Shown piece by piece: positions 16,946-40,323 of a stretch of 64,000 bases of DNA. Made by a program: the position numbers and the translations under genes. Below the pieces are notes generated by a model. It was not told where the DNA came from. It saw nothing but the letters and a program-made list of their open reading frames with translations, and made no database searches. The stretch's first letter is position 1, and the number at the start of each line of letters is the position of its first letter. The stretch comes from Candidatus Gastranaerophilales bacterium (GTDB taxonomy: Bacteria; Cyanobacteriota; Vampirovibrionia; Gastranaerophilales; Gastranaerophilaceae), in assembly GCA_017461425.1 (NCBI GenBank), contig JAFTXY010000001.1:62001-126000 (forward strand), written 5' to 3'.

Positions 16946-18040
16946 ATGAAAAATATTGCAGTTTTATTAGGTGATGGCTGTGGACCAGAAATAATCCAAC
17001 AAGCTATAAGAGTTTTAGATAAAGTATCATCAGTATATAATTTAAATTTCAAATATAACTATGCATCAATCGGTGGTCGTTCATACGATGAAACAGGATT
17101 ACCTTTAACAGAAAAAACTATTCAAACTTGTTTATCATCAGACGCTGTTTTATTAGGTGCTGTTGGCGATTGGAAATATGATTCATTAAGTCCTGAATTA
17201 AGACCAGAAAAAGCATTATTAGGTATTAGAAAAAAATTAAACCTTTTTGCAAACCTAAGACCTGTAAAAATATTTGATGAATTATTAAACACATCTCCAT
17301 TAAAACCAGAAATAGCAAGAGATGTTGATATAATGATTGTCAGAGAACTTACGGGTGATGTTTATTTTGGAGAACCTAAAGGAATAATTAAAAAAACAAC
17401 TTTAGATAACAGGGAAATTAAAGTTGGTTTTAATAATATGATTTACGATGAAGACGAAATCGCAAGAATAGCACATGTTGCATTTAAATCCGCACAAAAA
17501 CGCAAAAAAAGAGTATGTTGTGTAGATAAAGCTAATGTTCTAGATGTTTCAAGATTATTTAGAGAAATCACAACAGAAGTTTCAAAAGAATACAATGATG
17601 TTGAATTATCTTATATGTATGTTGATAATTGCGCAATGCAATTAATACAAAACCCAAGACAATTTGATGTTATTTTAACAGGAAATATTTTTGGAGATAT
17701 TTTATCTGATGAAGCATCAACTATCTGCGGTTCATTAGGAATGCTTCCATCTGCATCATTATCAGATGGTAAAACCCCATTTATGTATGAACCAATCCAT
17801 GGCTCTGCTCCGGATTTAGCCGGAAAAAATGCAGTTAACCCAATTGCAACAATATTGTCTGTCGCTATGATGTTAAACTATTCATTCAATGAAAAATTAG
17901 CTCACGATGCAATTTATAGAGCTGTTAAAGATGTCTTAAAAGAAGGTTATAGAACAAGAGATATCTATCAAAAAGATTTAAAACAAGAATTATGCTCAAC
18001 AAGCAAAATAACAGACCTAATTATAGAAAAAATAGTTTAG
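16946..18040 (+). CDS. leuB: 3-isopropylmalate dehydrogenase
   Basis: This enzyme oxidises and decarboxylates 3-isopropylmalate to 2-oxoisocaproate with NAD+. Its 364 residues carry [11 protein letters not shown], the substrate-site [10 protein letters not shown] and [13 protein letters not shown] stretches, [12 protein letters not shown], and the metal-site segment [13 protein letters not shown]. The latter is followed by [11 protein letters not shown]. It belongs to an operon with leuD. The last 4 bp overlap the stop of the convergent gene; no terminator is visible between them. Confidence 0.95.
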
Positions 18041-19017
18041 AACGTTGCGCTTACTTTTTTTTCATAAGCATCTATTTGTGCTTTACTGATATATCTTTGA
18101 GTTGCATTTGCAATTTTTAAAACATTATCCGAAATTTTGGTTGAAGTTTCAACTGAATTTTTATATGATCTTGTAACAATTTGTTTGATTTGATTTAAAT
18201 TATATGCACCATCTGAGTTTGGCATTAAAATAAGTGCGATTTCACCAATTTCTTTATCATCTAATGCAATATCTGCATATTCAGAATTTTGTTTTGCCAA
18301 AAGTTCAGATATTATATCTATTAAATTTTTGTTATCCACAACAGGAACAGGAACATACATTTCAACTTGCTTTTCGATGTTTGCTGAAATTAATGATATA
18401 TCTTCTGTGGCTAAAGCAAAAATAATATTTTCGCCGCCGTATTTATAAAAATACTGGTTTTCTACCGCAAAAAGCAAATCGTCAACATTATGCCTATTTT
18501 CAAAAGAAGCTGATAAAGCTTTTTCCGGCTTTCTTATAATTAGAATTGTCTTTTTACCAGTAGCATCAAAATCATCGCCAGCCTTAGAAATAACATCTCT
18601 TAAATCTTCGCCAAAAGTATCAGTATCTGCTTCAATCATTGAAACTTTGCAATTAGCTTCTTTTGCCATGCCTTTTAGTAAATCGGTTTTAAGAGAAACA
18701 TCAGGACCATAGAGACAAATAACAGGTGGAACTTTTTTAGTTGTAGCTATCTTAGGTTCCATAAGAGGCTCAACGATGTTTTTTCTTAAATGCTCCTTTT
18801 GTATATGATAGCCTGGAACATATTTATCCATTGCTTTTTTAGAATTAATTTTTTGAATGATATTTGTTGCATAAAGCGCTCTTAATGCTTCAATTTTCGG
18901 AGGCATAAATCTTGGTTCATTTTCATTTGAAACAAAAGAAATACTGCTATTTAATAGTTTTTTAGATTTATAATTATGTTTTGATGACAAATTATTATTT
19001 AATAAAGAAATTTTCAT
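18037..19017 (-). CDS. Degenerate AAA-like protein with N-terminal signature
   Basis: The 326-residue product from ATG 19017 (with GAGG upstream) is laid out like an AAA+ ATPase. A nucleotide-site-like GPDVSLKT lies at 104-111, a hydrophobic strand [10 protein letters not shown] stands where Walker B should be, and a C-terminal helical lid follows. The P-loop has lost the GxGKT glycine and the Walker B acidic pair is absent, so ATP hydrolysis is doubtful. The first 30 residues are Asn/Ser/Lys-rich, beginning MKISLL and containing SISFVS, and resemble the N-termini of five other proteins in this window. The function is unknown. It is convergent with leuB. Confidence 0.55.
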
Positions 19018-19094
19018 ACCAACCTCGCAAATAGCAATAAATACAGAAATAAAATACACTAAAAACACATTTTTTTCTTAAATGTTTATAAAAA

Positions 19095-19122
19095 TTTACA
19101 TGCTAAAAGTTCGTGATAAAAT
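19095..19122 (+). promoter_or_regulatory. Promoter of thrS
   Basis: TTTACA (19095-19100), a 16-bp spacer and TAAAAT (19117-19122) lie 33 bp before the start codon. Confidence 0.5.
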
Positions 19123-19155
19123 TAAATTAATCAATAAAAGAAAAAGAGGGAAGTA

Positions 19156-20925
19156 ATGGACAACGATAAACTACATATTTTAAGACACTCTTGCTCTCAT
19201 ATTATGGCGCAAGCGGTGCAAAAATTATATCCGCAAGCAAAATTGGCAATTGGTCCTGCTATTGAAAATGGTTTTTACTATGATTTTGACATTGAAGGTG
19301 TAACCTTATCCGATGAAAATCTAAAAGAAATTGAAAAAACAATGAAAAAGTTAATTGCTGGAAATTTAACTTTTGAAAAATATGTTATCCCTGATGTTGA
19401 AGCTCAAATAAATGAATTTAAAGCTCAAGGCGAAATTTATAAAGCAGAATTATTAGAAGAACATAAAAACGATAACCCAACTTTATATCTAACAAAAGAT
19501 AAAGATGGAAACGTTTTATTTAATGATTTATGTTCGGGTCCTCATATTGAATCAACAAAAGAAATCAAAGCATTTAAATTAATGAGTGTTGCTGGAGCAT
19601 ATTGGAGAGGAAACGAAAACAATAAAATGCTTCAGCGAATCTATGCGACAGCATTTTTAACTCAAGAGGAATTGGATGCGTACATACATCAATTAGAAGA
19701 AGCAAAAAGACGTGACCACAGGAAACTAGGAACTCAATTAGATTTATTCTCAGTAAGAGATGAAATTGGCGGAGGTCTAGTTTTATGGCATCCAAATTTA
19801 TATACAGTTAGAGAAGAAATTGAAAATTACTGGAGAGAAGAACATAGAAAACGTGGTTATGTTATTGTTCAAACTCCTCAATTGGCAAAATCTAAATTAT
19901 GGGAATTATCAGGACACATTGATCACTATAAAGAAAATATGTTCTTTATCCAAAAAACAGACGAAGCTGATGAACAATACATTGTTAAACCAATGAATTG
20001 CCCATTTCATATTTTAATTTATCAATCACAAAGACATTCATATCGTGACTTACCTTTAAGAATGGGTGAATTAGGAACAGTTTATCGTCGTGAAAAATCT
20101 GGTGCATTATCAGGTTTAACTCGTGTACAAGGTTTTACTCAAGATGATGCTCATATTTTCTGTACCCCAGAACAATTAGTTGACGAAATAAATGAAATCA
20201 TTGATTTTGTTGCTGATACTATGAAAATATTTAATATGGGTTTTGAAGTTGAATTATCAACTCGTCCAGAAAGCTATGTTGGCGACATCAAAAACTGGGA
20301 AATCGCAGAAGCTGGTTTAAAAGAAGCTATGGATAAGCGTGGTATGACATATGAAATCAATGAAGGCGATGGAGCATTTTATGGCCCGAAAATTGATTTC
20401 AAAGTTAAAGACGCGCTAGGTAGAACTTGGCAATGTGCAACAATTCAATTAGACTTCAATCTTCCAGAAAGATTTGAAATTAAATATCAAGATAAAGATG
20501 GTCAATTAAAAACCCCTGTAATGTTGCATAGAGTAATTTTTGGTTCAATGGAAAGATTCCATGGTATTTTAATTGAACATTATGCTGGTGCATTCCCGGC
20601 TTGGCTTGCACCACACCAAGTTGCATTGGTGCCAATTGCAGATAGACATAATGAATATATGGATGAAGTTTATAAAAAACTTAGAGCAAAAGGTATCAGA
20701 GTAATTTTTGAAGAAAAATCAGAATCAATGAATTATAAAATCAGAGATTACTTACAAAACCAAAAAGTTCCTTATGTTTTAATTGCTGGCGATAAAGAAA
20801 TAGCAGACGGCAAAGTCGCAATAAGAAAACGTGGAGTTGGTCAAATTGGCGAAATGACAATTGATGAATTCATTGAAAAGCTAATAAAAGAAATAGAAAC
20901 AAAAGGATTAGAAGAAATCAAATAA
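19156..20925 (+). CDS. thrS: Threonine--tRNA ligase lacking the TGS domain
   Basis: This class II synthetase charges tRNA-Thr. At 589 residues it is about 50-60 shorter than the usual enzyme because the N-terminal TGS domain is missing; the protein begins directly with the editing domain. That domain has His11 and His15 (HSCSH) and a CSGPH segment. The catalytic core has the zinc ligands Cys in MNCPFH (about 282), His in DDAHIFC (about 333) and His in MLHRVIFG (about 458). The HGAP-type anticodon domain ends the protein. The start has GAGGG and a clear promoter upstream. A terminator follows. Confidence 0.96.
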   Translation: MDNDKLHILRHSCSHIMAQAVQKLYPQAKLAIGPAIENGFYYDFDIEGVTLSDENLKEIEKTMKKLIAGNLTFEKYVIPDVEAQINEFKAQGEIYKAELLEEHKNDNPTLYLTKDKDGNVLFNDLCSGPHIESTKEIKAFKLMSVAGAYWRGNENNKMLQRIYATAFLTQEELDAYIHQLEEAKRRDHRKLGTQLDLFSVRDEIGGGLVLWHPNLYTVREEIENYWREEHRKRGYVIVQTPQLAKSKLWELSGHIDHYKENMFFIQKTDEADEQYIVKPMNCPFHILIYQSQRHSYRDLPLRMGELGTVYRREKSGALSGLTRVQGFTQDDAHIFCTPEQLVDEINEIIDFVADTMKIFNMGFEVELSTRPESYVGDIKNWEIAEAGLKEAMDKRGMTYEINEGDGAFYGPKIDFKVKDALGRTWQCATIQLDFNLPERFEIKYQDKDGQLKTPVMLHRVIFGSMERFHGILIEHYAGAFPAWLAPHQVALVPIADRHNEYMDEVYKKLRAKGIRVIFEEKSESMNYKIRDYLQNQKVPYVLIAGDKEIADGKVAIRKRGVGQIGEMTIDEFIEKLIKEIETKGLEEIK

Positions 20926-20950
20926 AAAAGAGGGCCCAAGCCCTCTTTTT
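20926..20950. terminator. Terminator after thrS (bidirectional)
   Basis: The stem AGAGGGC/GCCCTCT with a CCAA loop is flanked by A and T runs. It is shared with the convergent repeat-protein gene. Confidence 0.9.
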
Positions 20951-20957
20951 CAAATAT

Positions 20958-21407
20958 TTAGTATGCACCCCATTCAGGTGAATTAATTTTTCTTCTGTAA
21001 TATTCTTCAGGTGTCTCATCACAACCTTCTAAAGGATGTCTGTTAATTTTATTATATTCACATATATTATCAATATGTGGTTTTTCATGTTCTTCTATAA
21101 TATTTTTAACAGGTTGTTGATACTCAGTTTGTTCGGTAGTTACAGGGTAAGCATAATTACCACCCCAAGTAGAATAGGTAACTTCTTGATTTATATTTTT
21201 ATCAATACTTGGTTTGTCCACTTCTTGTGCACGTTTTAATTGACCTGCAGTTATAGGAAAAGCATAATTACCACCCCAAGTAGAATACATTACAACTTCA
21301 TCATCTCTTTTTCCCTCAATATCTACAATTGGTTGTGGTTGTTGTGATTGTTGTGGTTGTCTTGCTTGAAATGATTGAACACGAAATGAAATTGGTGATA
21401 TTTGCAT
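20958..21407 (-). CDS. WGGNYA-repeat protein with N-terminal signature
   Basis: This 149-residue protein is not recognised. The N-terminus MQISPISFRVQSFQARQ is followed by a Gln/Pro-rich stretch (18-27). Two near-identical units, YSTWGGNYAFPIT (41-53) and YSTWGGNYAYPVT (78-90), are separated by a Lys/Asp-rich linker. The extreme C-terminus, SPEWGAY, looks like a third, cut-down unit. No signal peptide or membrane segment is present. The aromatic Gly-rich units suggest a short binding or structural motif. A ribosome site AAGGAG precedes the ATG. Confidence 0.7.
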   Translation of the reverse strand: MQISPISFRVQSFQARQPQQSQQPQPIVDIEGKRDDEVVMYSTWGGNYAFPITAGQLKRAQEVDKPSIDKNINQEVTYSTWGGNYAYPVTTEQTEYQQPVKNIIEEHEKPHIDNICEYNKINRHPLEGCDETPEEYYRRKINSPEWGAY

Positions 21408-21475
21408 AATATTCTCCTTGTTAGTAATAATTCGTAACCATATAAAACAACTGAAGAAAAAAAATTGCCTAAAAA

Positions 21476-21497
21476 ATAAGCGGGAATTTTCCCGCTT
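21476..21497 (-). terminator. Terminator of the aldolase operon
   Basis: An 8-bp stem AAGCGGGA/TCCCGCTT has a 4-nt loop and a T-rich tail on the minus strand. Confidence 0.85.
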
Positions 21498-21511
21498 TGA
21501 CCTAAAATAAA

Positions 21512-22105
21512 CTATCTAACCATTTCCATAGTAGTTTTTATAGTTTGAACTATATCTTTATAGTTATCTTTTCCGTAAAATTCTCTTCCGACGCCAACAG
21601 CCAATGCACCAGCTTTTAGATACCCTTGAATTTCATCAATTTTTACAAAACCACAAGGCAATAAATTCAAAAATGGCATTGGTTTGACCATTTCACGGAT
21701 ATATTCAACTCCGCCCATTTCTGCAACTGGATATATTTTTATTAATGGCATACGAGAGCGCCAAGCATTATATGCTTCGTTTGGAGTTGTAACAGATGGA
21801 ATTAAAAAAGCTTTGTAGCAAGAAGCAAATCTAACAAGATTTGTTTGAAAAATAGGGCTTGAAATTATTTTTGCACCAGCTTCTAATGCTTTATGAGCTT
21901 GTGCGGTTGTTATTATTCCCCCTTGAGAAATAATAACGTTATCGAATTTAGAAATTTTTTGTGTGACTTCTAATGGCGAATTTAATTCAATAAATTTAAT
22001 CCCGCCCTCAATATATGCTCTTGCAATTTCATATGCTTTTTGGGCATCATCTTCTCTTATGATACCGTATATTTTTTGATTTTTGATTTCGTCTATAAGT
22101 TTCAT
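21512..22105 (-). CDS. eda: KDPG/KHG-type aldolase
   Basis: This class I aldolase is of the type that cleaves 2-keto-3-deoxy-6-phosphogluconate or 4-hydroxy-2-oxoglutarate. The 197-residue TIM barrel has Glu40 (KFIELN), the phosphate-site SQGGII loop, PSVTTPNEA (103-111) and the Schiff-base Lys123 in LIKIYPV. A canonical KFFPA is replaced by KIYPV, a modest change. No Entner-Doudoroff dehydratase (edd) is adjacent, so the physiological substrate is uncertain. The gene starts directly after the stop of the small upstream gene, indicating coupled translation. Confidence 0.82.
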   Translation of the reverse strand: MKLIDEIKNQKIYGIIREDDAQKAYEIARAYIEGGIKFIELNSPLEVTQKISKFDNVIISQGGIITTAQAHKALEAGAKIISSPIFQTNLVRFASCYKAFLIPSVTTPNEAYNAWRSRMPLIKIYPVAEMGGVEYIREMVKPMPFLNLLPCGFVKIDEIQGYLKAGALAVGVGREFYGKDNYKDIVQTIKTTMEMVR

Positions 22106-22417
22106 CTATGCAAATACGGCTTTCTTTTCAACATATTGCTCTTTAACAAATTGTTGAGTATTTTTTAGTCTTAAAATTGAAATAGCTCTTTTAGTTTCTT
22201 CATCTTTGACAATCCAACATATCTTTTTTTTGAAATCTTTTATAAAACAATATGTTGAACATAAGATTGCTAATTTTGTCGCTTTAATAAGGTTGAATTC
22301 ACTAATGTCGACAATATATTTATCATCTTGCATCGTGTATTCAAGTTTTAATGAGGAATTATTACTCTCAACGATAAAATCGTTTTTCGATAATTTAATC
22401 TGACTAATGGTATTCAT
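22106..22417 (-). CDS. Small hypothetical protein, possibly STAS-like
   Basis: This 103-residue protein has no recognised signature. The order strand (KYIVDISEFNLI), helix (KATKLAILCSTYCFI), strand (KKICWIVKDE), helix (ETKRAISILRLKN) resembles the alpha/beta layout of STAS anti-sigma antagonist domains, but no phosphorylatable Ser is obvious. That comparison is weak. The gene directly precedes the aldolase and shares its transcript. Confidence 0.5.
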   Translation of the reverse strand: MNTISQIKLSKNDFIVESNNSSLKLEYTMQDDKYIVDISEFNLIKATKLAILCSTYCFIKDFKKKICWIVKDEETKRAISILRLKNTQQFVKEQYVEKKAVFA

Positions 22418-22531
22418 TTTATTTCTTTGCTATCTACAAATTAATAATCGACACCAAAAACGCTTTTTTAATTATTTCTTTTAAAAAGTAATACATTTGT
22501 TGTATGCTAATATATATCCAAAGGAGAAATT

Positions 22532-23071
22532 ATGAATAAAAATAATTTAGAATTAATTTCCATAGCATCAAAAATCAAATTAATTGCTTTTGATGTTGAT
22601 GGAGTTATGACAGATGGCTCTTTAAGCTTTCTTGAAGATGGAAGAGAAATAAAAACATTCAACGCAAAAGATGGGCTCGGCGTTGTAATGCTCGGCAAAG
22701 CAGGAATTATTACATCAATAATAACAGCAAGAAACAATGGAACAGTTTCTCATCGAGCAAAAATATTAAATATAAAAGAATTGTTTATGGGTTCTAAAAA
22801 TAAAATTGAATCTTTGAATGAATTAATTAAAAAATATAACCTAAAAAAGGATGAAATTGCATACATGGGTGATGATTTGCCTGATATCTGTGTATTAAAA
22901 GAAGTTGGATTAAAATGTTGTCCTAATGATGCAGTTTGTGAAGTTAGAGGAATTTGCAATTTTATATCCGAATATAATGGCGGAAAAGGCGCAGTTCGAG
23001 AAGTTTGTGATTTTATTTTAAAATCAAAAAATCTAACATATGACGATATAAACAAACCGACTCAACAATAA
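22532..23071 (+). CDS. kdsC: 3-deoxy-D-manno-octulosonate 8-phosphate phosphatase
   Basis: This HAD-superfamily phosphatase makes KDO from KDO-8-phosphate for the lipopolysaccharide inner core. Its 179 residues match the KdsC class without a cap domain. The nucleophile motif FDVDGVMTDG contains Asp21 and Asp23. KDGLGVVML, SIITARNNG (motif II) and MGDDLPDICVL (motif IV, about 112-122) follow. AAAGGAG precedes the ATG. kdsA, kdsB and kdsD are not in the window. The lipid A genes at 48.7-51.9 kb fit this role. Confidence 0.9.
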   Translation: MNKNNLELISIASKIKLIAFDVDGVMTDGSLSFLEDGREIKTFNAKDGLGVVMLGKAGIITSIITARNNGTVSHRAKILNIKELFMGSKNKIESLNELIKKYNLKKDEIAYMGDDLPDICVLKEVGLKCCPNDAVCEVRGICNFISEYNGGKGAVREVCDFILKSKNLTYDDINKPTQQ

Positions 23072-23090
23072 TTTTTTATTTTCATAACAA

Positions 23091-23117
23091 AAAAGAGGGA
23101 TTTATTATCCCTCTTTT
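23091..23117. terminator. Terminator between kdsC and the phosphorylase
   Basis: The stem AGAGGGA/TCCCTCT has a 7-nt loop. A run lies upstream and T run downstream, so it serves both convergent genes. Confidence 0.88.
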
Positions 23118-23138
23118 TTTATTGCTTTTTTTCAAAAC

Positions 23139-24833
23139 CTATTTAATATTTGAATATGTCCAAGCGTCTTGATTTGGAGTTTCAATAGATTTTGCACTTG
23201 CATTATTGTTGCCATCAGCTTGAGCACCACCATGAGCAATTGGTTTATAAATTCTGTTGAAGTATTCAATAACCATTCTGTCAGAATTGAAATATCCTTC
23301 AGCGGTTCTCATAGCTTGACGCATTAAACGAGCCCATTCTTGTTTGTTTTCATAGTATGTTGGAATGATTTCGTTTTCTAATGTGTTCATAATAAATCTA
23401 TGATCTTTCCAGTGTCTTTCTTCCCATGGAATATCATCATCTAGTCCTGGGTATTCAACAGTATAACCATTGATTCCTGGGAATGTACCTTCTACTGTCC
23501 AACCATCATAAATAGAGAAGTGTAAAGCACCATTCATATTAGCAGACATACCAGAAGTACCAGAAGCTTCTAATGGACGAGTTGGTGTATTTAACCAGAT
23601 ATCAGAACCTTTTTTAAGTTTTGCAGATAATGCAAGTTCATATCCAGGTAACACAACAACATTTTTCATATTATATGATTTTTTCAAAATATTGTTAAAT
23701 GTTTCTTTACCCATAACATCATCTGGATGGAATTTACCAGCAAAAATCAATTGAACTTTATTTTCATTTAATAATTTACCGATTCTATCTTCATCCATTA
23801 AAATTAACCAAGCACGTTTATAATCAGCAAATCTTCTTGCCCAAGTGATTGTTAATACGTTTGGATCAAAACGTTTTCCTTGAGTATCAGAAATGTATTG
23901 GAATAAATCTTTTTTCATTTCATATTTAGCATCAAGTAATTCTTGAGCTGATTTAGCTTTAGCAATTCTATCATCTTGCCAATAATGTAGGTTAACAGCA
24001 TTTGTAATAGCTTTAATTGGGCATCTATCTTCTACCCATTCCCACATTTTATTTGCAACTAAGCCGTGTAATTGTGATACAGCATTAGCAATTCTAGACA
24101 TTCTAAGAGCAGCAACTGTTAATGAGAAGTTTTCACCACCCAATTCAACAGCAGTTTCACGAGAGCATCCTGAGAAGAAACCAGCATCAACTAAAGTATC
24201 AACCCAGTGAACTTCATTACCAGCAGGAACTGGAGTATGAGTTGTGAATACAGTTTTTTGTCTAACAGCTTTTAAATCACCATTGTATTGTCTTAATAAT
24301 TCAAACGCAGCAGGAAGAGCGTGCCCTTCATTCATATGGATAACATCAAAATTATATCCAACAGTTTGTAATACTCTAACACCACCAATACCAAGGATTG
24401 TTTCTTGAGCTACACGGATTTTTTCATCACCGTCATATAATTTATGAGTGATTTTTCTTGCCCATTCAGAGTTGCCTTCAACATCTGTTGTTAATAAATA
24501 AATTGGACAAGTTCCGAATAATTCTGCTTCAACTTTATATGCTTTAACGATTACATCTTCGCCAAAAACTTTAACAGTAGTTGATACATTTAAATCAGTT
24601 AAGAAGTCATAGTGTTTTCTAATGTAAGCTACTTCTACATTACCTTTTTCATCGATTCTTTGGTCGTAATAACCATAAGACCATAGCATCGTAACACCAA
24701 CCATAGGCATTTGAAGGTACCCAGCTGATTGCATGTGAGAACCAGCTAAAAATCCTAAACCTCCAGAATATGTTGCTAAGGATTGGTCGATTGCAATTTC
24801 CATTGAAAAATAAGCTACGTTTGGTAAAGCCAT
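23139..24833 (-). CDS. glgP: GT35 alpha-glucan phosphorylase family protein, PLP lysine replaced
   Basis: The 564-residue protein belongs to the short alpha-glucan phosphorylases (GT35), which release glucose-1-phosphate from glycogen or starch. It starts VAYFSMEIAID and has YSGGLGFLAG (24-33), HMNEGHA, TTHTPVPAGNEVHW and RRFADYKRAWLI. The PLP site region RPLEASGTSGMSANMNGA is intact except that the residue after Met is Ser430; family enzymes have the PLP-binding Lys there. Without the lysine the cofactor cannot form its Schiff base. The protein may be inactive, a sugar sensor or a retaining glycosyltransferase. The gene is monocistronic. Confidence 0.8.
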   Translation of the reverse strand: MALPNVAYFSMEIAIDQSLATYSGGLGFLAGSHMQSAGYLQMPMVGVTMLWSYGYYDQRIDEKGNVEVAYIRKHYDFLTDLNVSTTVKVFGEDVIVKAYKVEAELFGTCPIYLLTTDVEGNSEWARKITHKLYDGDEKIRVAQETILGIGGVRVLQTVGYNFDVIHMNEGHALPAAFELLRQYNGDLKAVRQKTVFTTHTPVPAGNEVHWVDTLVDAGFFSGCSRETAVELGGENFSLTVAALRMSRIANAVSQLHGLVANKMWEWVEDRCPIKAITNAVNLHYWQDDRIAKAKSAQELLDAKYEMKKDLFQYISDTQGKRFDPNVLTITWARRFADYKRAWLILMDEDRIGKLLNENKVQLIFAGKFHPDDVMGKETFNNILKKSYNMKNVVVLPGYELALSAKLKKGSDIWLNTPTRPLEASGTSGMSANMNGALHFSIYDGWTVEGTFPGINGYTVEYPGLDDDIPWEERHWKDHRFIMNTLENEIIPTYYENKQEWARLMRQAMRTAEGYFNSDRMVIEYFNRIYKPIAHGGAQADGNNNASAKSIETPNQDAWTYSNIK

Positions 24834-25086
24834 AATTTAATAATCCTTTTAATACTAACTACATTTTTGATTAATACAATTTTAACACAAATATAATTAT
24901 CACCAAATAAAATAATTCTAAAGTAGTAATTAATTTGCTCTATTAATTATATAAAAAAATAAGTTTTTTTAAAGAAATTCAGCCAGTGTGTTACAAAACT
25001 TAATATTTTTGAAAAATTTAAGCAATTTTTTTAAATATATACACTTTATATACTCATAAGGTATAGAATATATAAGGATAGATAAA

Positions 25087-25926: not shown

Positions 25927-25936
25927 CTATAATATC

Positions 25937-25960
25937 AAAAAGCCCCATACGGGGCTTTTT
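25937..25960. terminator. Terminator between EF-hand gene and DHH gene
   Basis: A 10-bp stem AAAAAGCCCC/GGGGCTTTTT has an ATAC loop. It is symmetrical and serves both convergent genes; it overlaps the last base of the DHH stop codon. Confidence 0.92.
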
Positions 25961-27174
25961 TATTGCCAAAAATTATCGCAAGAAATTATTTTTTCAACCC
26001 AATTATGACAGTCATCTTTATCAATAGATAACAATCTTGCACCACCTCTTGCAGGATGACCACCTGCATTTTGAGTAAAATCATCAATTTTATAATCTTC
26101 AATATAATCATAAAATTTCAATAAATCTGGTTTTTTAGTATGTGCGCTTAATCTATAAACTTGATTAGCTTCATAAAAAACAAATGCGGCTTCAACACCA
26201 TTCAATTTATCATTATCAAATTTATTATTTAAAATATCTTGTCTAAAACGATTTAAAATTGTGCTTGTTCTAGCATTTTCTCCACCCAAACTTTGCCAAA
26301 TTTTATCGTCTGGCGGAATTTCCACGTAAGCAATTTTTTTATTAGGACTTAGTTTCAAATTTTTGTACAAAGATTGTTGAAATTTTTCTTCTTCCGGAGT
26401 TAAAGATGACATAATATCTATTGCTTTTGCAATTCTATCTGTTTGAAAACTATTTAACTTAGAAATTAGGCTAATATATATTTCATAAGCATTTTTATCA
26501 TTCATTAACTCTGCTTTTGGTGAAATTATTCCTCTTTTACCATCGCAAATTATTAATCCACGTTTAACACCATCATCAACTAAACCAAAAAATAAATCGT
26601 AAGCGGTATCTTTATCAATTTCTTTTCCAATACTTTCAAAAAACCTATAGACAATGCTTGTAGTGCTTGGCGCAGATGCATCCGTATAATATGCTACACG
26701 AGATTTTGGAACATCATGTTTATCAAACGATTTTGTTAGTAAAATAGAATTTTCATCAACCATATCATTTCCGATATGATGATCAAAACCCATAATTTTT
26801 CCTGATTGCTGTGCATGAGCTACAAGATTTTTATTAATTCTTTCTTTTTCTCCAAAATCAACACAAAAAGTAATATCTGGAGTTATTGAATTAATTTTTT
26901 CTGTTTCATTTGCTTGAATTATATTACAATCAGTTCTTCTTGGATATAAAGAGTTAAGATTTTTTTGATCGATGATAATCCTTGCATTTATACCCAATTC
27001 ACTTAAATATTCCCACATTGCAATTGCAGAATTTAAACCATCTCTATCAGTGGAGCTATGAGAAATAATATCAATATTTTTTGCGTTTCTTAATTGTGAA
27101 TCAACATACTTTGCCTGTGATGATGGCATTTTGTTTGCTCTAAAACTGGTTTGGCATACTTTTTGAAGTTTCAT
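25960..27174 (-). CDS. DHH/DHHA1 phosphoesterase with N-terminal signature
   Basis: This 404-residue protein resembles NrnA-type enzymes that degrade short oligoribonucleotides or remove phosphate from pAp. Motifs are SHSSTDRDGLNSA (39-50, motif I with Asp pair), FCVDFGEKE (motif II), GFDHHIGN (about 129-136, the DHH box) and a DHHA1 glycine motif NAGGHPARGG (about 372-381), which differs from the usual GGGH. Metal ligands appear complete, so it is probably active. The first 15 residues (MKLQKVCQTSFRANK) are an extra head resembling five other proteins here. It follows udg by 1 bp. Confidence 0.78.
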   Translation of the reverse strand: MKLQKVCQTSFRANKMPSSQAKYVDSQLRNAKNIDIISHSSTDRDGLNSAIAMWEYLSELGINARIIIDQKNLNSLYPRRTDCNIIQANETEKINSITPDITFCVDFGEKERINKNLVAHAQQSGKIMGFDHHIGNDMVDENSILLTKSFDKHDVPKSRVAYYTDASAPSTTSIVYRFFESIGKEIDKDTAYDLFFGLVDDGVKRGLIICDGKRGIISPKAELMNDKNAYEIYISLISKLNSFQTDRIAKAIDIMSSLTPEEEKFQQSLYKNLKLSPNKKIAYVEIPPDDKIWQSLGGENARTSTILNRFRQDILNNKFDNDKLNGVEAAFVFYEANQVYRLSAHTKKPDLLKFYDYIEDYKIDDFTQNAGGHPARGGARLLSIDKDDCHNWVEKIISCDNFWQ

Positions 27175-30372: not shown

Positions 30373-30375
30373 AAA

Positions 30376-30558: not shown

Positions 30559-30609
30559 TTTTTTTCTCCTTTTTAATAATTTTATTATATATGATTTTTA
30601 AAATGGTTG

Positions 30610-30615
30610 TATAAT
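30610..30615 (+). promoter_or_regulatory. -10 box 7 nt before nanE (leaderless candidate)
   Basis: TATAAT ends 7 nt before the ATG of nanE, so transcription should start at or next to the A of the start codon. No Shine-Dalgarno sequence is present. The upstream TTG gives an extended -10 context. Confidence 0.5.
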
Positions 30616-30622
30616 ATATTGT

Positions 30623-32196: not shown

Positions 32197-32285
32197 ATAA
32201 ATCTGCAACATATTTTACAAAACAACCACAAAAGATTTTTTGGTGTAAAATTGAGCATGAACAAAATTATCAGAGGAGAGCATAA

Positions 32286-33521: not shown

Positions 33522-33530
33522 GGATAAATT

Positions 33531-34577
33531 ATGATAAAACTATCACAAGCTCATATTTTAGGTACAATAATAGCTTATTTATTAGGAATTTTTATTGTTC
33601 CCTTGGTGATATATTTTTCAAAAAAGAACAATCTTGTAGATGTTCCAAATGAAAGAAAAATCCACCATGGTCAAATTTCTCGCCTTGGCGGAGTTGCCAT
33701 ATGGGTTTCAGTTATGCTTACATTTTTATTTCTTGTTCTATTAAGCTATTATCCAAAAGGGCAAGGGTTATCCGCCATTGTTGTTGGCGGCTCTTTAATG
33801 TTTTTAATGGGCTTAATTGATGATGTTTATGGACTAAATGCAAAATTCAAATTATTTATACAAATTGCAATAGCAACAATTGTAATGCTTTTAGGAATTA
33901 GGATTGAAACTTTCTATAATCCCTTCGGGACAGACATTAGCCTAGGCTTTATGTCATATCCAATAACTTTATTGTGGATTGTAGGTATTACTAATGCAAT
34001 CAACTTTATAGACGGAATTGATGGATTAGCGGGTTCAATTGTTAGTATTTCCGCTCTTGCAATTGGGATTGTTTCATTAATTTTAGCTCCAGCAGCACCA
34101 ATAACAGCTTTGATTGCTTTTATTTTAATGGGTGCAATGTGCTCATTTTTAACATTCAACTACAACCCTGCTAAAATTTTTATGGGAGATTCAGGAGCAC
34201 TATATGCAGGATTTCTGTTAGCAACTTTATCTATAACAGGCATTGTTAAACCAAGTACAGGAATAAGCATGTATTTACCAATATTAATCCTTGCAGTTCC
34301 TTTGATGGATGTTGCTTTTTCTTCAACAAGGAGAATTCTAAAAGGCTCAAGTCCTTTTGTTGCAGATGCTGAACATATACACCATAAATTATTACATGCT
34401 GGCTATTCGCAAGACAAATTGGTTTTATTATTAGCTAGTTTTTCAATGGTTTGTGCTTTATTATCAATTTTTGTTGTTACAACTAAGAGCAAATTTATAA
34501 TCACAGCCCTAAGTTTAATTGGCGTTTTAATTGTGTTAAATGTTATTTCTAAAATGATTAAAAAGAAAAACGATTAA
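33531..34577 (+). CDS. Undecaprenyl-phosphate sugar-1-phosphate transferase (WecA/TagO type)
   Basis: This polytopic enzyme (348 residues, about ten membrane spans) moves a sugar-1-phosphate, usually GlcNAc-1-P, from a UDP-sugar to undecaprenyl phosphate. That step begins O-antigen or wall-polymer synthesis. It has DVPNERKIHHG, GLIDDVYGL, the catalytic NFIDGIDGLAG loop, MGDSGALYAGF and the HIHH motif (about 281-284), which marks the WecA group and not MraY. AAGGAT lies before the ATG. Sugar specificity cannot be read. Confidence 0.9.
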   Translation: MIKLSQAHILGTIIAYLLGIFIVPLVIYFSKKNNLVDVPNERKIHHGQISRLGGVAIWVSVMLTFLFLVLLSYYPKGQGLSAIVVGGSLMFLMGLIDDVYGLNAKFKLFIQIAIATIVMLLGIRIETFYNPFGTDISLGFMSYPITLLWIVGITNAINFIDGIDGLAGSIVSISALAIGIVSLILAPAAPITALIAFILMGAMCSFLTFNYNPAKIFMGDSGALYAGFLLATLSITGIVKPSTGISMYLPILILAVPLMDVAFSSTRRILKGSSPFVADAEHIHHKLLHAGYSQDKLVLLLASFSMVCALLSIFVVTTKSKFIITALSLIGVLIVLNVISKMIKKKND

Positions 34578-34633
34578 CAAAAATATTCCTTTATGTGCTT
34601 TATATTACTATCTAAATAAATTAAGGAAGTATT

Positions 34634-35575
34634 ATGCGCATACAAGCAATAACAAATAACATTTCACCATATAAAATTAACAAAAATAATACCCAAAAAC
34701 CAAATCTATCTTTAACAAAAGATGTCTTTTTTGCTTCAACACGCATAGAAGATAGAGAAATGGTTTCCCAGCAAATCACGCAATTTGTTGAAGATATTAG
34801 CACTTGTATTTTTGGAAAAAATATAGTTTCTTTTGAAGAAATTAGAAAATCTATAAATAAAATTGCGCCAGACATTAATGTAATTGAAAAAAATCCAGAA
34901 GATTATACTTTAAAAGTTATTAGCAAAACAAGAAGTATCATAACAGAAGACAGAGAAACACAAAAAGCTGATGTTCATAATTATCCGCCTGTTTTATATA
35001 TTGACCCGACAACAGAAGATGATGGAGATAAAATAATCTTATTAAAAAACATTATTATGGAAACCCTAAAACATAAACTTAATTGCTTAGGTTCTGATTA
35101 TGATGAAAATGCAATTATTGGAAACATATTAAGAAGATACAATCCATCACAAGCGCAATATATTTCAGATGAACTTGATAGATGCTATGATATGATTGAA
35201 ACAAGCATAGATGGTACCATGAGCCAATTACAATATGAATCATTCCCAGAAGATGAATCTAAATATAAAAAAATAAGAAATAAGTGTGTAAAAAATGCTA
35301 TTTCAAACGGATTTAAAACAAGTCCAATTCTTCTTTTAACTCCAGGCGGAAAAGAAACAAAAAAACTATTTTCAACAAAAATTAAAAAAGAACTTATTGC
35401 AAGAACAGCGATAATAAATGCATTCACATATACTTATTTAAATTTTATCAATCCAAACCTTCCTGATGATGTAGATTTAGAAGAAAATCCAGGATTAGCA
35501 GGATTAATGCTTAGTTTTGAAATACAAAAATATTCAAAAGATTTTTATCAAGAGCTTCTAAGACAAATAAACTAA
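34634..35575 (+). CDS. Hypothetical protein, paralogue of the next gene without HExxH
   Basis: This 313-residue protein is not recognised. It starts MRIQAITNNISPYK, similar to the next gene. Residues 139-150 (NIIMETLKHKLN) align by position and spacing with NLLHEGIHFLQD of the neighbour, keeping the Glu but replacing the two His by Met and Lys. Downstream helices are rich in Arg, Lys and Glu and share little sequence. If the homology is real, this is an inactive partner. It ends TAATG, overlapping the neighbour's start by one base, so the two are translated together. AAGGAAG precedes its ATG. Confidence 0.55.
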   Translation: MRIQAITNNISPYKINKNNTQKPNLSLTKDVFFASTRIEDREMVSQQITQFVEDISTCIFGKNIVSFEEIRKSINKIAPDINVIEKNPEDYTLKVISKTRSIITEDRETQKADVHNYPPVLYIDPTTEDDGDKIILLKNIIMETLKHKLNCLGSDYDENAIIGNILRRYNPSQAQYISDELDRCYDMIETSIDGTMSQLQYESFPEDESKYKKIRNKCVKNAISNGFKTSPILLLTPGGKETKKLFSTKIKKELIARTAIINAFTYTYLNFINPNLPDDVDLEENPGLAGLMLSFEIQKYSKDFYQELLRQIN

Positions 35576-36534
35576 TGAAAATCCAATCAATAAAAACTAA
35601 TTCAAACCAAAATATTTACTTTAAACAGCGAAAATATCGTCAAGCTACACCCACAAAAACATATGGCGATGTTTTTGTACGCAATTTAGTTCCCAAAATG
35701 GAATTTGAGGAAGCTTATAAAGATTTTCAAAATAGAATTATTAACTATATCTTTAAAACAAGAAACTTCAAAAACGATGTAATAGAAGAAGTTCTAAAAA
35801 AATATAGTTCAAGTATTTCCGTAAAAGACCTTAGAAAAAAGACTTTCTCAAGCAGAGTGCCAACCAAAGCAACTGGCATCTTTGGACAAAGTTATTCAAT
35901 AGAAGAAACAAAAAATGGTTTAAGAGCAAAAGTAAAAAATAACGAACTATGCGTAATATATCCAAAAATCCCAAATAAAAAATCTCGTTTGAAATTTTTA
36001 GAAAATCTATTGCATGAAGGTATACATTTCTTACAAGATTCAACAAAAGACAGAAAAAGCAGAGTAGCAATTATAAACGAGCTTATTGAAAATATTAAAA
36101 GCAAAGAATTAGCAACTGAAAAATTAAATTTATTATTTTCAAATTATACAGAAACAGAAAATATGGCAAGTTCGTTTTTACTTAATGCATTTTTATCTAA
36201 ACATCCTCGCCAAGAAGAAATTACAAGAGAAAAGCTTAATAGTCTTTGCATAGAACAAATAAAAGAAGATTTGGAAACTTGCGCAAGAGCCATAGTTGCA
36301 AATTACCTAGATTCTAATTCAAGTTGTCTTGATGTATTTACTAAAAATGATTTATTAAATTATTTAATACATGGTTTTAATCAAGAAATAGAAGCATATA
36401 CTTTATCTTTAAATACTCTAGAAAAATATTGTGATTTAAATAAAACATTTTCTAATGGCACTGCAACTATTGCAAGAGGAAGAGTTATTTTATATAAAGA
36501 ATGTGCTAAAGTCGCACAAGAATTAAAAGATTAG
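35575..36534 (+). CDS. Putative HExxH zinc peptidase with N-terminal signature
   Basis: The 319-residue protein carries HEGIH (147-151) inside a helix (LENLLHEGIHFLQD). A later helix holds NQEIEAYTL (269-277), which could give the third, glutamate zinc ligand, as in HExxH...E metallopeptidases. There is no signal peptide; the N-terminus MKIQSIKTNSNQNIYFKQ resembles other proteins in the window. The middle is helical and Lys-rich. Peptidase function is inferred from the motif only. It is coupled to the upstream paralogue and overlaps the end of the opposed small ORF. Confidence 0.55.
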   Translation: MKIQSIKTNSNQNIYFKQRKYRQATPTKTYGDVFVRNLVPKMEFEEAYKDFQNRIINYIFKTRNFKNDVIEEVLKKYSSSISVKDLRKKTFSSRVPTKATGIFGQSYSIEETKNGLRAKVKNNELCVIYPKIPNKKSRLKFLENLLHEGIHFLQDSTKDRKSRVAIINELIENIKSKELATEKLNLLFSNYTETENMASSFLLNAFLSKHPRQEEITREKLNSLCIEQIKEDLETCARAIVANYLDSNSSCLDVFTKNDLLNYLIHGFNQEIEAYTLSLNTLEKYCDLNKTFSNGTATIARGRVILYKECAKVAQELKD

Positions 36535-36701
36535 TCTTCCAGATACGAACAGGATATGCTCAATTCTAAATCATTTACCTCAACAATTGCCCATCTTATT
36601 ACATCTAGATTTAATTTTTTAAATTCATTTTCAACAAATTCAACACTTGGAGGCAACTTTTCAGCTTTTATTTTAATTGTTTTAGAAACAACTTCTTTCA
36701 T
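36531..36701 (-). CDS. Small ORF (56 aa) coupled to nupC
   Basis: This frame lies below a 60-residue ORF threshold. ATG 36701 follows the nupC stop codon without a gap, and the frame runs 56 codons to a stop that overlaps the last bases of the metallopeptidase gene by 4 bp. The product begins MKEVVSKTIKIKAEKLP and contains NLDVIRWAIVEVND; it is acidic and probably alpha/beta. No family is recognised. Placement directly after nupC and a clean frame support expression. Confidence 0.55.
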   Translation of the reverse strand: MKEVVSKTIKIKAEKLPPSVEFVENEFKKLNLDVIRWAIVEVNDLELSISCSYLED

Positions 36702-37994
36702 TTATAAAATAATTCCCGCAATCGCTGCTGAAATATAGCTAACTAATGTACCACAAATTAACGCTTTTACTCCTAATCTTGCAAGATTTTTTCTTTGATT
36801 AGGTGCAAGCTCACCAATACCACCAATTTGTATTGCAATTGTAGAAAGATTTGCAAATCCGCAACATGCAAAAGTTGCTATAACGATACTTTTTTGAGAT
36901 AAGGCATTTATATCAATATATTTAATTAAATCAACATATGCGATTGTTTCATTTAAAATAAATTTTTCACCAATTAATGTACCAACCATTTCAATATTGC
37001 CCCAAGTGGCACCAATTAAAGCAGCAAAAATACCAAATATTTTACCAACAATCATTTGAATTGATAGATTTTGCATATCAATACCAATACAAGATAAATC
37101 TATATGGCATTTTTGGAATAAAAATAAACCAATATTGCTCAATATCTCATTACAAAATGTAATTAATGCAACCAATGCCAATAATACAGCAACAATATTT
37201 AAAGATACTCTCATACCTTCTGATGCACCTTTTGAGATGGCTGCTAATAAATTAACATCTGTTCTTCTTCTGCTAATTTTAAAATCTTTTTTTGTCTGCG
37301 GTTCCATAACTTCTGGATAAACAATTTTTGAAACCACAAAAGAGCCAGGTATTGCCATAACGGAAGCTGCTAGAAGATATTCCGTGTTAATTCCAAACCC
37401 TGTATACATTGCAATACAGCTTGCAGAAATACAAGCAGTTGAACCTGTCATTGATGCCAGTAATTCAGAACGAGTTAAGTTTGGAAGATAATGTTTAATC
37501 ATAGATTGAGCAGCAACATTACCAACGAAAGGGCTTGCGCAATTTGATAAAGCTTCTGCACCGCTAACGCCCATTATTTTATTCATTATTTTTCCTAAAA
37601 CCAAAATAACTCTTTGCATTATTCCGTAATAGTATAAAATATTAACCAAAACCATAATCAATATCATTGTTGACATTAATATCAATGCAAAAATAAAATC
37701 TTTTCCTGGAAATAACTGAGTAATTTTTTCAGGAGAATTTGTTAACCACCCAAATACAAAATTTGAACCCGAAATTGAAGCGTCTAAAATTTCATTTATA
37801 ATTTTTGCTAAAAAGCTAAATATTTTAACACCAACAGGGGTTTTCATAATAAATAATGCTAAGAAAAATTGCAAAAATAGACCAACGCCAATAGTTTTAT
37901 AATTAATCTTTTTTCTATTATTAGACATCAAATAACAAATGCCTAAAATAACTATAATACCAACCAACCCGCTTAATCTTGATAAAATTTCCAA
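36702..37994 (-). CDS. Concentrative nucleoside transporter (NupC/CNT family)
   Basis: This inner-membrane permease takes up nucleosides with a cation. The 430-residue protein has the CNT N-terminal helices, GVSGAEALSNCASPFVGN, SELLASMTGSTACISAS (gate region), and CCGFANLSTIAIQIGG near the C-terminus, the strongest family signature. It starts with TTG 37994 preceded by AAAGGA. Its promoter region is shared with the divergent HlyD-like gene. A 56-codon ORF is coupled to its stop. Confidence 0.9.
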   Translation of the reverse strand: MEILSRLSGLVGIIVILGICYLMSNNRKKINYKTIGVGLFLQFFLALFIMKTPVGVKIFSFLAKIINEILDASISGSNFVFGWLTNSPEKITQLFPGKDFIFALILMSTMILIMVLVNILYYYGIMQRVILVLGKIMNKIMGVSGAEALSNCASPFVGNVAAQSMIKHYLPNLTRSELLASMTGSTACISASCIAMYTGFGINTEYLLAASVMAIPGSFVVSKIVYPEVMEPQTKKDFKISRRRTDVNLLAAISKGASEGMRVSLNIVAVLLALVALITFCNEILSNIGLFLFQKCHIDLSCIGIDMQNLSIQMIVGKIFGIFAALIGATWGNIEMVGTLIGEKFILNETIAYVDLIKYIDINALSQKSIVIATFACCGFANLSTIAIQIGGIGELAPNQRKNLARLGVKALICGTLVSYISAAIAGIIL

Positions 37995-38107
37995 AACAAT
38001 TTTCCTTTTAATTACTTTTCTTTATTATAATTTAAATAATGCATTTTGAACATACTTACCTTATAATAAATATATAGATGATTTAATAGTTTTTCAGGAG
38101 TTTGGTT

Positions 38108-39031
38108 GTGAGTAAGAAAAATATTTTAATATCAAGCGCAGTGGCGATTTTATTAATCGTGTTTTTTTATTTTTTAAATAATTTTCTATATTATTCAACA
38201 ACAAAAGCTCGTATTAAATACAATATTGAAAATATTACAGCAAAAATTGATGGAAATGTTTCTTTAATAAAAATTGAAAATAATACCGAAGTTAAAAAAG
38301 GAGAAATTCTTGTCCAATTAGAGCAAGAAGATATAAAAAAAGAACTTGAAAACGCGAAAAAAGAATTACAAGAAGCGCAAAACAAACTAAATGAAAATTC
38401 AAACAAAATAAAATTCATAGCTTCTCAAGCAAAAAACAATATAGAAGATGCAAAATTAAAACTAGAAAATGCAAATAATGATTACACAATCTACAAAAAT
38501 TCATACAAAGATGGAACTGTTACAAAAAATGATTTGGATAATGCAACAAAAAATTTAGCTCTTGCAAAAGAAAACTATGAAAATGTACAAAAAAATATAG
38601 AACTTGCAAAAGAAAGTCTTGAAGTAAACCAAAATATCAATGAAACACAAAACGAGGAAATTCAAAATTTAACAAAAAAAATTGAAGAACTAGAGCTTAA
38701 ACTTTCTTATTCAACTTTTATTGCTCCGTTTGATGGCAAAATAAAAAAAATAAATGTTAAATTAAATCAAGAAGTAAAAACTGATGATAAAATCCTGACA
38801 ATAATTTCTAATGATTATTATATAAAAGCAAAATTTAAAAAAGCAAAACTATCAAAAATAAAAGAAAACCAAGAAGTTTTAATATCTATAACACCTTATA
38901 AACAAATAAAAGGCTTTGTAAAAAATATAGATACAAATAAAAACATAGTAATAATTCAGCCTAAAGAATTTGATTCAGAAAAAAAACTTAAACATAATAA
39001 AAAAGTTTTCATAAAAATAAAAGTTAATTAA
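38108..39031 (+). CDS. HlyD-type membrane fusion protein
   Basis: This periplasmic adaptor (307 residues) starts at GTG 38108, which has AGGAG with 7-nt spacing; the TTG at 38102 is too close to that site. An N-terminal membrane anchor (about 5-24) is followed by the two halves of a lipoyl domain (GNVSLIKIENNTEVKKGE and IAPFDGKIKKINVKLNQEV), separated by a long coiled-coil hairpin (about 75-200). A beta-barrel domain ends it. Such proteins link an inner-membrane pump to an outer-membrane channel, but neither partner gene is adjacent. Its last 4 bp overlap the opposed gene. Confidence 0.8.
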   Translation: MSKKNILISSAVAILLIVFFYFLNNFLYYSTTKARIKYNIENITAKIDGNVSLIKIENNTEVKKGEILVQLEQEDIKKELENAKKELQEAQNKLNENSNKIKFIASQAKNNIEDAKLKLENANNDYTIYKNSYKDGTVTKNDLDNATKNLALAKENYENVQKNIELAKESLEVNQNINETQNEEIQNLTKKIEELELKLSYSTFIAPFDGKIKKINVKLNQEVKTDDKILTIISNDYYIKAKFKKAKLSKIKENQEVLISITPYKQIKGFVKNIDTNKNIVIIQPKEFDSEKKLKHNKKVFIKIKVN

Positions 39032-40323
39032 TTTCTAGGAAAAACACTAATTCCTTTGATATTATTTTTTGCACAATATCTTATAATGCAATCAATATCT
39101 TCTTTGGTATGATAGTTTTTTAATAAAATTGTTTTTGAAATATTTCCATCTAAATATTTCTGAGCGCAAATCATTGTGTCTAATTCTTGATAATATGTTA
39201 TTTTTTCATTATTAATTGGTTCAAGCGCAGGAGAAACCATTAAAAATCTAGAAATTGTTCCTGTAGGAGAAATTGCCATTTTTAAATTATTCGCTTTTAC
39301 TTTTGCCTTTATAATAGAAAGCACTTTATCTAAAAGTTTTATAGCTTCTTTACTGCCATATTGAATATCCATTTTATCTAATAATGTTGCATAGCCCAAT
39401 ATCCCAATTCTAGAATTTTCATCAATGTTACTCATTGCTTTTGACAAAATATCAGCGCATTTTTGCAATTTTGCATAATCAATTTTTTCTGTTTTTGTAT
39501 CATAAAATTTCGCTAAGTTAATATGACCCAAAACAAGTTTTTCATTTTCATTTAATTCAGAGGCGGCACAACAATCGCAATTATAATCTTTTTTATTTGA
39601 AAAAATCACTCCAGGTTCGCCTTTTTTTTGCATTGAAGTAATTAATTTTAAATAAATTTCACGAGCTTTTATTTTTTGACCATTATCTAGAATTACATCT
39701 TCGTTATTATCAACTTTTTCTAAAAAATCATCAGGGATTATAACCGATATATCAAAACACCAATTTTTATAATCCTCATCATCTTTTAAACCAATAAAAT
39801 CTAAAATCATAGGATGGGTAATATTTAATAAGCCAATTGCTGCTGGCGGTCTATTTGTCGTTTCTTGGCGATACTTTAAATATGCATTTATTTTTTTAAT
39901 TTGTTCTATCGGATTTTCAAAATCCTGAAAATTTATACCAATGCCATTTTCAGAATTTATGAAACCTTCTAAATATGCAAGATTTTTTGTTATGGAATTA
40001 TTTGGATTTAATTTCACAGCAGTCGCACTTGATGGATGCTCCAAATTTAGATAACATGCGCTTGATAAACTAATAAATCCCTCTTTCAACATTGTTGAAA
40101 AATATTTTTTATCCTCATTATTGTGAAATACTTTTTCTGAAATTTCATCAAAAAAAGCATTTATATTTTTATCAGGATTAATTATTCTTCTATCAATAAA
40201 AACTTTTTTATTAACATTTGAATTTTCAAATTCACAACAATCATTTTTGCTTGACAAACTAGCAACAGAAGTTTGTTGCTTAAAATTTATTCTATTGACA
40301 GGAATTAATTTTTTAATTTGCAT
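39028..40323 (-). CDS. Shortened class II ribonucleotide reductase-like protein, probably inactive
   Basis: The 431-residue protein aligns by motif with NrdJ-type reductases: SLSSACYLNLEHP (86-97, first redox Cys90), NGIGINFQD (126-134), THPMILDFIGLKDD, GEPGVIFSN, LGHINLAKF (265-273), PTGTIS (353-358), VSPALEPI, and the C-terminal KGISVFPR. The radical-site NPCGE motif is replaced by the region NCDCCAASEL (248-257), the usual CNLG second redox Cys is VLGH, and the ATP-cone and long N-terminal part are missing. It has the head MQIKKLIPVNRINFKQ. Its ATG overlaps the scpB stop (TAATG). Normal nucleotide reduction is unlikely. Confidence 0.7.
   Translation of the reverse strand: MQIKKLIPVNRINFKQQTSVASLSSKNDCCEFENSNVNKKVFIDRRIINPDKNINAFFDEISEKVFHNNEDKKYFSTMLKEGFISLSSACYLNLEHPSSATAVKLNPNNSITKNLAYLEGFINSENGIGINFQDFENPIEQIKKINAYLKYRQETTNRPPAAIGLLNITHPMILDFIGLKDDEDYKNWCFDISVIIPDDFLEKVDNNEDVILDNGQKIKAREIYLKLITSMQKKGEPGVIFSNKKDYNCDCCAASELNENEKLVLGHINLAKFYDTKTEKIDYAKLQKCADILSKAMSNIDENSRIGILGYATLLDKMDIQYGSKEAIKLLDKVLSIIKAKVKANNLKMAISPTGTISRFLMVSPALEPINNEKITYYQELDTMICAQKYLDGNISKTILLKNYHTKEDIDCIIRYCAKNNIKGISVFPRN

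Follow-up and report, generated by a model that had tools for sequence, protein, structure and literature searches.

A short N-terminal sequence, here called the head, is shared by otherwise unrelated proteins encoded in a 64,000-nucleotide stretch of a Candidatus Gastranaerophilales genome (the window, G000:C12:62001-126000, with a guanine-plus-cytosine (GC) content of 29%). The typical head reads M-[KR]-I, followed by 5-7 mostly polar residues and then by [NS]-F-[KRG]. Judged from the sequences, the existence of this shared head is well supported, and a sorting or export tag would be a fair reading of it. The same order of bacteria also carries a second type III export gate, which is distinct from the flagellar one and is new here. 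We call the corresponding apparatus T3SS-B (T3SS, type III secretion system; T3SS-A is the flagellar export gate), and we tentatively propose that it reads the head.

A first-pass annotation of the window had reported six proteins with such a beginning, and all six N-termini are found where it had placed them. They were scored with a matrix that combines residues 2-3 with the best four-residue core within residues 5-41. The matrix was trained on 37 heads of the DHH and GH77 families from other genomes only, with the copies of the window's own genome excluded; the DHH family is therefore part of the training and the window copy (27174) is not. In the training heads the phenylalanine lies at residue 6-22, and in 26 of the 37 at residue 10-12. 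The heads and bodies of the six proteins are as follows, with ranks among the 52 open reading frames (ORFs) of the window.

18928..19017, minus strand: head MKISLL...SSISFVS, second half weaker; matrix score 10.3, rank 4/52
18037..18927, minus strand: body, AAA-like, weak match below the Pfam cut-off
21363..21407, minus strand: head MQISPISFRVQSFQA; matrix score 13.7, rank 1-2/52
20958..21362, minus strand: body, YSTWGGNYA[FY]P present twice, no Pfam family
27136..27174, minus strand: head MKLQKVCQTSFRA of the DHH protein; matrix score 10.7, rank 3/52
25960..27135, minus strand: body, DHH phosphoesterase domain (PF01368, E 7e-13, from residue 34)
34634..34738, plus strand: candidate head MRIQAI...DVFFAS, weak; matrix score 7.3, rank 8/52
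34739..35575, plus strand: body, Pfam matches weak and below cut-off
35575..35628, plus strand: head MKIQSIKTNSNQNIYFKQ; matrix score 9.9, rank 6/52
35629..36534, plus strand: body, one HExxH, metallopeptidase-like by eye, Pfam matches below cut-off
40276..40323, minus strand: head MQIKKLIPVNRINFKQ of the protein resembling ribonucleotide reductase (RNR); matrix score 13.7, rank 1-2/52
39028..40275, minus strand: body, RNR barrel, active site altered (PF02867, E 3e-23, from residue 136)

Together the six proteins take ranks 1, 2, 3, 4, 6 and 8, and the intruders among the top ranks are a protein with a Sec-type N-terminus (12235) and LeuB (16946). The ATG of the first head, at 19017, lies within a longer GTG frame that ends at 19068. 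The proteins at 18037 and 34634 had been marked as the poorer matches, and so they are: the second half of the former is poor, and the latter scores only 7.3. The description of a detachable head on diverse cargo also stands, as orthologues retain the head and core proteins expected to lack it score low (SMC 5.0; GlmU outside the top 12). Among the bodies, Pfam identifies the DHH domain and the RNR barrel; the AAA-like body and the peptidase-like pair give only weak matches below cut-off.

Occurrence of the head beyond the window

The genome of the window measures 1.45 Mb and is 78% complete; about half of it was sampled, with ORFs taken from a simple caller that starts each at its first ATG. 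For the test sets at a score of at least 12, genes of the training families were removed and ORFs with a hydrophobic N-terminus were left out. In this sample 12 of 449 ORFs reach a score of 12, where shuffles that preserve the composition give 2.5 (Poisson P 1e-5), and at a score of 13 there are 9 ORFs compared with 1.8. Two of the twelve are probably false, namely an FlgL-like protein and a glycosyltransferase-like protein starting MKILFVSDLYP. Generic motif discovery (zero-or-one-occurrence-per-sequence expectation maximisation on 884 sampled heads) returned only a Lys/Ile/Asn composition, and it was replaced by k-mer tests and by the matrix from orthologue families. Thresholds of 10-13 were used for the matrix; a threshold of 7 gives no excess over shuffles (80 vs 79.6) and is uninformative, because the start residues alone dominate the score.

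In the relatives the picture is flatter. Three genomes of the same genus give 2/268 ORFs at a score of at least 12 (1.2 in shuffles), five other genera of the family 0/339 (0.6), four genomes of other families 3/313 (0.4), one of these three having a hydrophobic N-terminus, and the single sister-order genome 0/35. By matrix score, the genome-wide excess of heads is clear only in the window's genome, and the relatives show little.

The core of the head, taken by itself, is enriched more widely. Across the window's genome and 12 relatives, [NST]F[KR][GA] is found in 23/1268 heads and in 28/6719 internal segments (P 1.5e-8), and the wider form [NST]F[KRGNSQT][GA] in 48/1268 and 98/6719 (P 9e-9). 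When the phenylalanine of the wider form is exchanged for Y, L, I or V the excess is absent, and W is borderline (P 0.05). Outside the genus, heads with NPSFKG, QPSFKG or QVSFKG stand behind Asn/Gln-rich leaders. In the window's genome a start of the type M?[KRQ][ILV] is associated with the Phe core (Fisher P 1.8e-5; P 0.01 for the Tyr version), and in the 12 other genomes it is not (P 0.51). Both parts, an M[KRQN][IVL] start and a Phe/Tyr core, occur together in 31 of 620 ORFs of the window's genome, the tagged ones included.

Conservation among orthologues depends on the family. The DHH protein is present in 22 of 28 genomes of the genus, and at 21/21 sister loci within the genus the upstream residues ending in [FY]-x-A are kept; at one locus (L036) there is no ATG ahead of these conserved residues. 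Copies at the level of the order, for example L048, still begin MKIQNNISFCA. A strict regular expression finds both halves of the head in 16/27 DHH proteins; the paralogues L049-L051 give no alignment that covers their N-termini. The GH77 family (4-alpha-glucanotransferase-like, e.g. L016:4887-6713) has up to five matches per genome, strongly diverged and in some cases fragments of one gene. Of 30 loci taken, 27 give alignments that include the start. Both halves of the head are found in 23 of the 27, and it is retained at body identities down to 24% with an altered linker (MKISALNSNLNFKRALT and MRINSINSKASFGKALT are examples). The remaining four are two near misses (MKINSCRVDFGKALT, MEISRIGATASFGRAFT) and two that are headless from the first ATG; the order also has GH77 versions without an apparent tag (L225, L226).

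The RNR-like family retains the head only loosely. Among 26 copies from the genus, the M[KRQN][IVL] start is found in 9, a wider class of starts in 17, the Phe/Tyr core in 16 and both strict halves in 7, and one copy (L137) has no head. Orthologues that keep the body and lack the head had been named beforehand as evidence against a tag; this is not what the DHH and GH77 families look like, and it is partly what the RNR-like family looks like.

Tagged proteins of the window's genome were collected by hand (n=31), in a partly subjective list. The tagged proteins of this genome include a 5'-nucleotidase, GH77 and a metallophosphoesterase-like protein (below cut-off), further a homing-endonuclease-like, a CheR-like and, weakly, a SpoU-like protein; many others match no family above the cut-off. 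In the relatives the head is found on a protein combining LysM, phage lysozyme and amidase (MNVSFNKLSFKG), on two alpha-amylases and on a nucleotidyltransferase. Judging by these family assignments, the LysM-lysozyme-amidase protein, the nucleotidase and the starch enzymes would suit export as cargo. With heads that were picked partly for polarity, a signal-peptide-like (hydrophobic) N-terminus is found in 0/31 listed proteins compared with 100/589 others, a membrane-like segment in 3/31 compared with 138/589, and residues 2-25 are rich in Asn/Ser/Gln and poor in Asp/Glu. Tagged genes adjoin each other six times compared with 1.4 expected (P 0.001, on the same partly subjective list).

The RNR-like protein (39028-40323) is unusual in its active site as well. 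At the place of NPCGE in the order's canonical NrdJ copies that were compared, it carries D[CPS]C[AG][AT], and it is without the Cys of CNLGS[IV]NL; in 26/26 copies of the genus the central Cys is retained and the catalytic Glu is missing. In a search of 58 genomes this altered form is confined to the genus. The RNR-like query has exactly one match in 26 of the 28 genus genomes and none in two, so the genus may be without the canonical enzyme. Two further features of the window were named by eye, an HlyD-like adaptor beside the RNR-like gene (38102-39031) and the start of a patatin-like phospholipase (GGGIRG) at the edge of the window (1-445).

A second type III export gate

All 57 Gastranaerophilales genomes have matches to PF00771 (FlhA/SctV), FliP and FlhB (57/57 each); for PF00771 there is no match in the one class-level genome. 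The FlhA matches fall into three kinds by score: class A at about 860-890 bits, class B (FlhA') at about 670-730 bits, and class C, which corresponds to the C-terminal half. FlhA' is present in 53/57 genomes and absent from G031, G038, G048 and G052, which are 75-88% complete. FliP also shows two score classes, with class B (FliP') in 56/57 and absent from G054 (83% complete). Counted from the matches listed, every member of the order (57/57) has FlhA', FliP' or both. The ATPase has a second score class that is also over cut-off, and in FlhB the two classes are not separable by score.

Seven members are without flagellin (G009, G028, G029, G030, G033, G034, G047). All have class B, and among the matches listed none has a class A FlhA or FliP. 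Flagellin has three matches in the window's genome; a class A FlhA is lacking there, which may reflect the incompleteness of the genome.

In the window's genome the parts of T3SS-B are spread over three loci: SLT transglycosylase-FliE-FliF-unknown-FliH-FlhA' (L021), FliN-like-FliO'-FliP'-FliQ'-FliR' (L144), and FlhB' with an NPTH site (L228). The gate parts FlhA', FlhB' (NPTH), FliP', FliQ' and FliR' are thus all found, as are the base parts: its own FliF, FliH and FliN-like proteins and the second ATPase class. The order FliE-FliF-unknown-FliH-FlhA' recurs in G003, G033 and G034 (partly by eye; FliE and FliF of G033 by Pfam). The transglycosylase gene directly before FliE (L021:3404-4066) has no Sec-like start, and a gene with a nearly identical beginning lies at the same place in G003. 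Between FliF and FliH, four T3SS-B operons encode a conserved protein of 317-338 residues (L021:6180-7133 in the window's genome) with no Pfam family over cut-off, whose position suggests an equivalent of FliG/SctK.

Six copies of FlhA' are 76-95% identical to each other (15 pairs). Identity to the FlhA' of the window's genome is 37-39% for ten class A copies. This FlhA' stays below both curated cut-offs (686.8 vs 772.1 for FlhA, TIGR01398; 602.2 vs 692.25 for SctV, TIGR01399), while a class A copy exceeds that for FlhA with 828.5. FliP' is slightly below the FliP cut-off (215.5 vs 217.45, TIGR01103) and below that of the SctR equivalog (200.7 vs 208.6, TIGR01102), and above that of an SctR-type subfamily (214.5 vs 179, NF009438); FliE is above the flagellar FliE model (48.5 vs 30). 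From these scores T3SS-B is an apparatus of mixed affinity.

Class C is a free C-terminal domain of FlhA (FlhA-C), in a frame of mostly 470-540 residues, and is present in at least 50 of the 57 members; G029 and G030 have one PF00771 match each, of class B. The class C protein of the window's genome matches structures of the FlhA cytosolic domain, and in the free FlhA-C proteins (L195:4222-5673; L196:4724-6202) the roughly 125 N-terminal residues are different.

That the flagellar gene sets of Gastranaerophilales are incomplete was noted in 2013-2014 and, in the sections covered here, treated as loss (PMC3787301, PMC4040986). Di Rienzi et al. describe MEL.A1 as lacking filament, cap, junction and L/P rings, with possible ongoing reduction (PMC3787301, same sections). 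In contrast, the gate described here is a distinct paralogue, order-wide and conserved. The covered parts of a termite-gut genome paper report flagellar and pilus genes (PMC5877343), and those of a flagellin survey only mention flagella in Melainabacteria (PMC7018530). Neither a second export gate nor the head is described in the covered portions of PMC3787301, PMC4040986 and PMC5877343. More broadly, neither a type III system nor a head motif has turned up for Gastranaerophilales in the open-access full-text literature that was searched.

What might read the head

The reading we tentatively favour, with a confidence well below one half, is that T3SS-B reads the head as an N-terminal export signal. 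Gastranaerophilales keep this second apparatus beside or in place of a flagellum, and enzymes would gain the head in the form given at the outset. Recognition would take place in the cytosol, with either the C-terminal domain of FlhA' or the soluble FlhA-C paralogue as a possible receptor, and the head would then lead the unfolded protein out via FliPQR'-FlhB' without Sec. Nothing would be cut off, and the cargo may end up in the gut lumen, at the cell surface or in another cell.

To our knowledge, the known type III secretion signals are without a sequence consensus. They resemble the head in that they form a polar N-terminus on unrelated proteins, without a Sec signal and beside a T3SS; unlike them, the head has a two-part consensus that recurs across families. 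Early flagellar subunits carry dual signals, which like the head combine a short hydrophobic N-terminal part with a downstream Phe element (in the parts of PMC8983047 covered). For the cargo there is a precedent in Chlamydia, where fusions of GlgA, GlgB, GlgX, GlgP and MalQ were secreted by a T3SS (PMC4829429, in the text examined): here as well, starch or glycogen enzymes including MalQ (GH77) would carry an N-terminal export signal. The chlamydial signals were found by assay, with no consensus head in the text examined of PMC4829429, while the head of Gastranaerophilales is known from sequence only.

The link between the head and T3SS-B is circumstantial. Co-occurrence counts in its favour: in the sister order no genome has a gate over cut-off (0/40; one weak match of 22.9 bits). 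A GH77 gene starting MRVLGIDNRIAFQR lies 41 bp after the free FlhA-C gene in G033, and in G028 the GH77 and free FlhA-C genes are side by side; such pairs are weak support for the link. Over all five genomes in which GH77 lies near T3SS genes (G033, G028, G037, G046, G055), chance would give about as many cases by a rough estimate.

Several observations weigh against this reading. A head present across the order would be found together with every other trait that the whole order shares. The filter for polar heads gives 0/112 ORFs in the sister order compared with 54/1906 in Gastranaerophilales (Fisher P 0.07), and the strict [NST]F[KR][GA] core 1/112 compared with 28/1906 (P 1.0); this control is not significant, comes from a small and GC-richer sample, and decides nothing. 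The likely own substrates of T3SS-B, the SLT transglycosylase and the FliE of G033 and G034, are without a head. Known flagellar signals need at least 19 residues between their hydrophobic N-terminal portion and a gate motif of the FLTLL type, according to the covered parts of PMC8983047, and here the element is [NS]F[KRG] with its F mostly at residue 10-12; the spacing is too short for the flagellar two-part signal, and the head would require a different mode of recognition. Some cargo looks cytosolic (the weak SpoU-like, the CheR-like and the homing-endonuclease-like proteins), and the polarity of the listed heads was in part a reason for their selection. The odds of recognition by T3SS-B are lowered by the non-significant control and the small excess in relatives, and our confidence is as low as it is because no tagged protein is tied directly to the exporter and the presumed substrates of the apparatus are headless.

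Somewhat unlikely, in our estimate, is a tether within the cytosol, the head being a short linear motif by which enzymes dock on one partner (a scaffold, a membrane protein or a storage granule) without export. The motif's two parts, which lie at an almost constant distance from each other in DHH and GH77, would fit this, as would the cytosol-like part of the cargo, and the recurrence of starch enzymes would fit a granule. However, the LysM-lysozyme-amidase protein and the 5'-nucleotidase make little sense inside the cell, and no encapsulin or microcompartment shell was found in the 58 genomes. The head does resemble the targeting peptides of encapsulins and microcompartments, which are likewise short terminal tags on diverse cargo. 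Encapsulation, one of the roles first suggested for the head, finds no support in the search: encapsulin (PF04454) is found in 0/58 genomes compared with 3/14 control rings, and the bacterial microcompartment (BMC) shell protein PF00936 in 0/58 compared with 2/14.

It is unlikely that the head merely reflects shared composition and descent, that is, AT-rich genes giving disordered N-termini rich in Lys/Ile/Asn/Phe, with some leaders duplicated and no function. Such an origin is consistent with the 2.5 high scorers that remain in shuffles against the 12 observed, with the little excess of the two-part score in relatives, and with the RNR-like family, in which one copy is headless and others have a degenerate head. 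Against it, the excess is specific for Phe and not for Tyr, Leu, Ile or Val, the GH77 head survives at 24% body identity with a changed linker, and the head is present on unrelated folds.

Quite improbable is a signal for some other route, such as anchoring at the surface, proteolysis under control or another exporter. A type I system is reported to be missing from gut relatives (PMC3787301, in the sections covered), and no candidate machine was found in searches that covered the T3SS families, encapsulin and BMC. Least probable is that the flagellar gate, T3SS-A, reads the head; a gene whose second ATG opens a head-like sequence (MRLNTNNTSFSG) does lie between FlhB and FlhA, on the opposite strand, in the flagellar gate operon of G003 (L193:7810-8751), and the FlgL-like L146:5652 begins MRIS with a high matrix score, but heads are present on GH77 in G009 (L199) and G029 (L200) and on an alpha-amylase in G028, where flagellin is absent and no class A FlhA is among the matches listed.

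Taken further, this reading would give the whole order a branch of T3SS of its own. Its FlhA' falls short of the curated cut-offs for flagella and injectisomes alike, its signal would be the consensus M[KR]I-x5-7-[NS]F[KRG], a free FlhA-C might act as receptor, and the branch would re-route to the outside starch enzymes and nucleotidases as well as wall hydrolases and an RNR-like protein of altered design. This wider picture, drawn from sequence comparison, is rather doubtful. If it is true, sequence alone would be enough to recognise the exported proteins of a gut lineage that is common and largely uncultured, and what have been taken for flagellar remnants would be a working exporter, a new branch of T3SS near the cyanobacteria. 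Even without a link to a T3SS, a head common to unrelated enzymes offers a way to approach how these cells sort their proteins.

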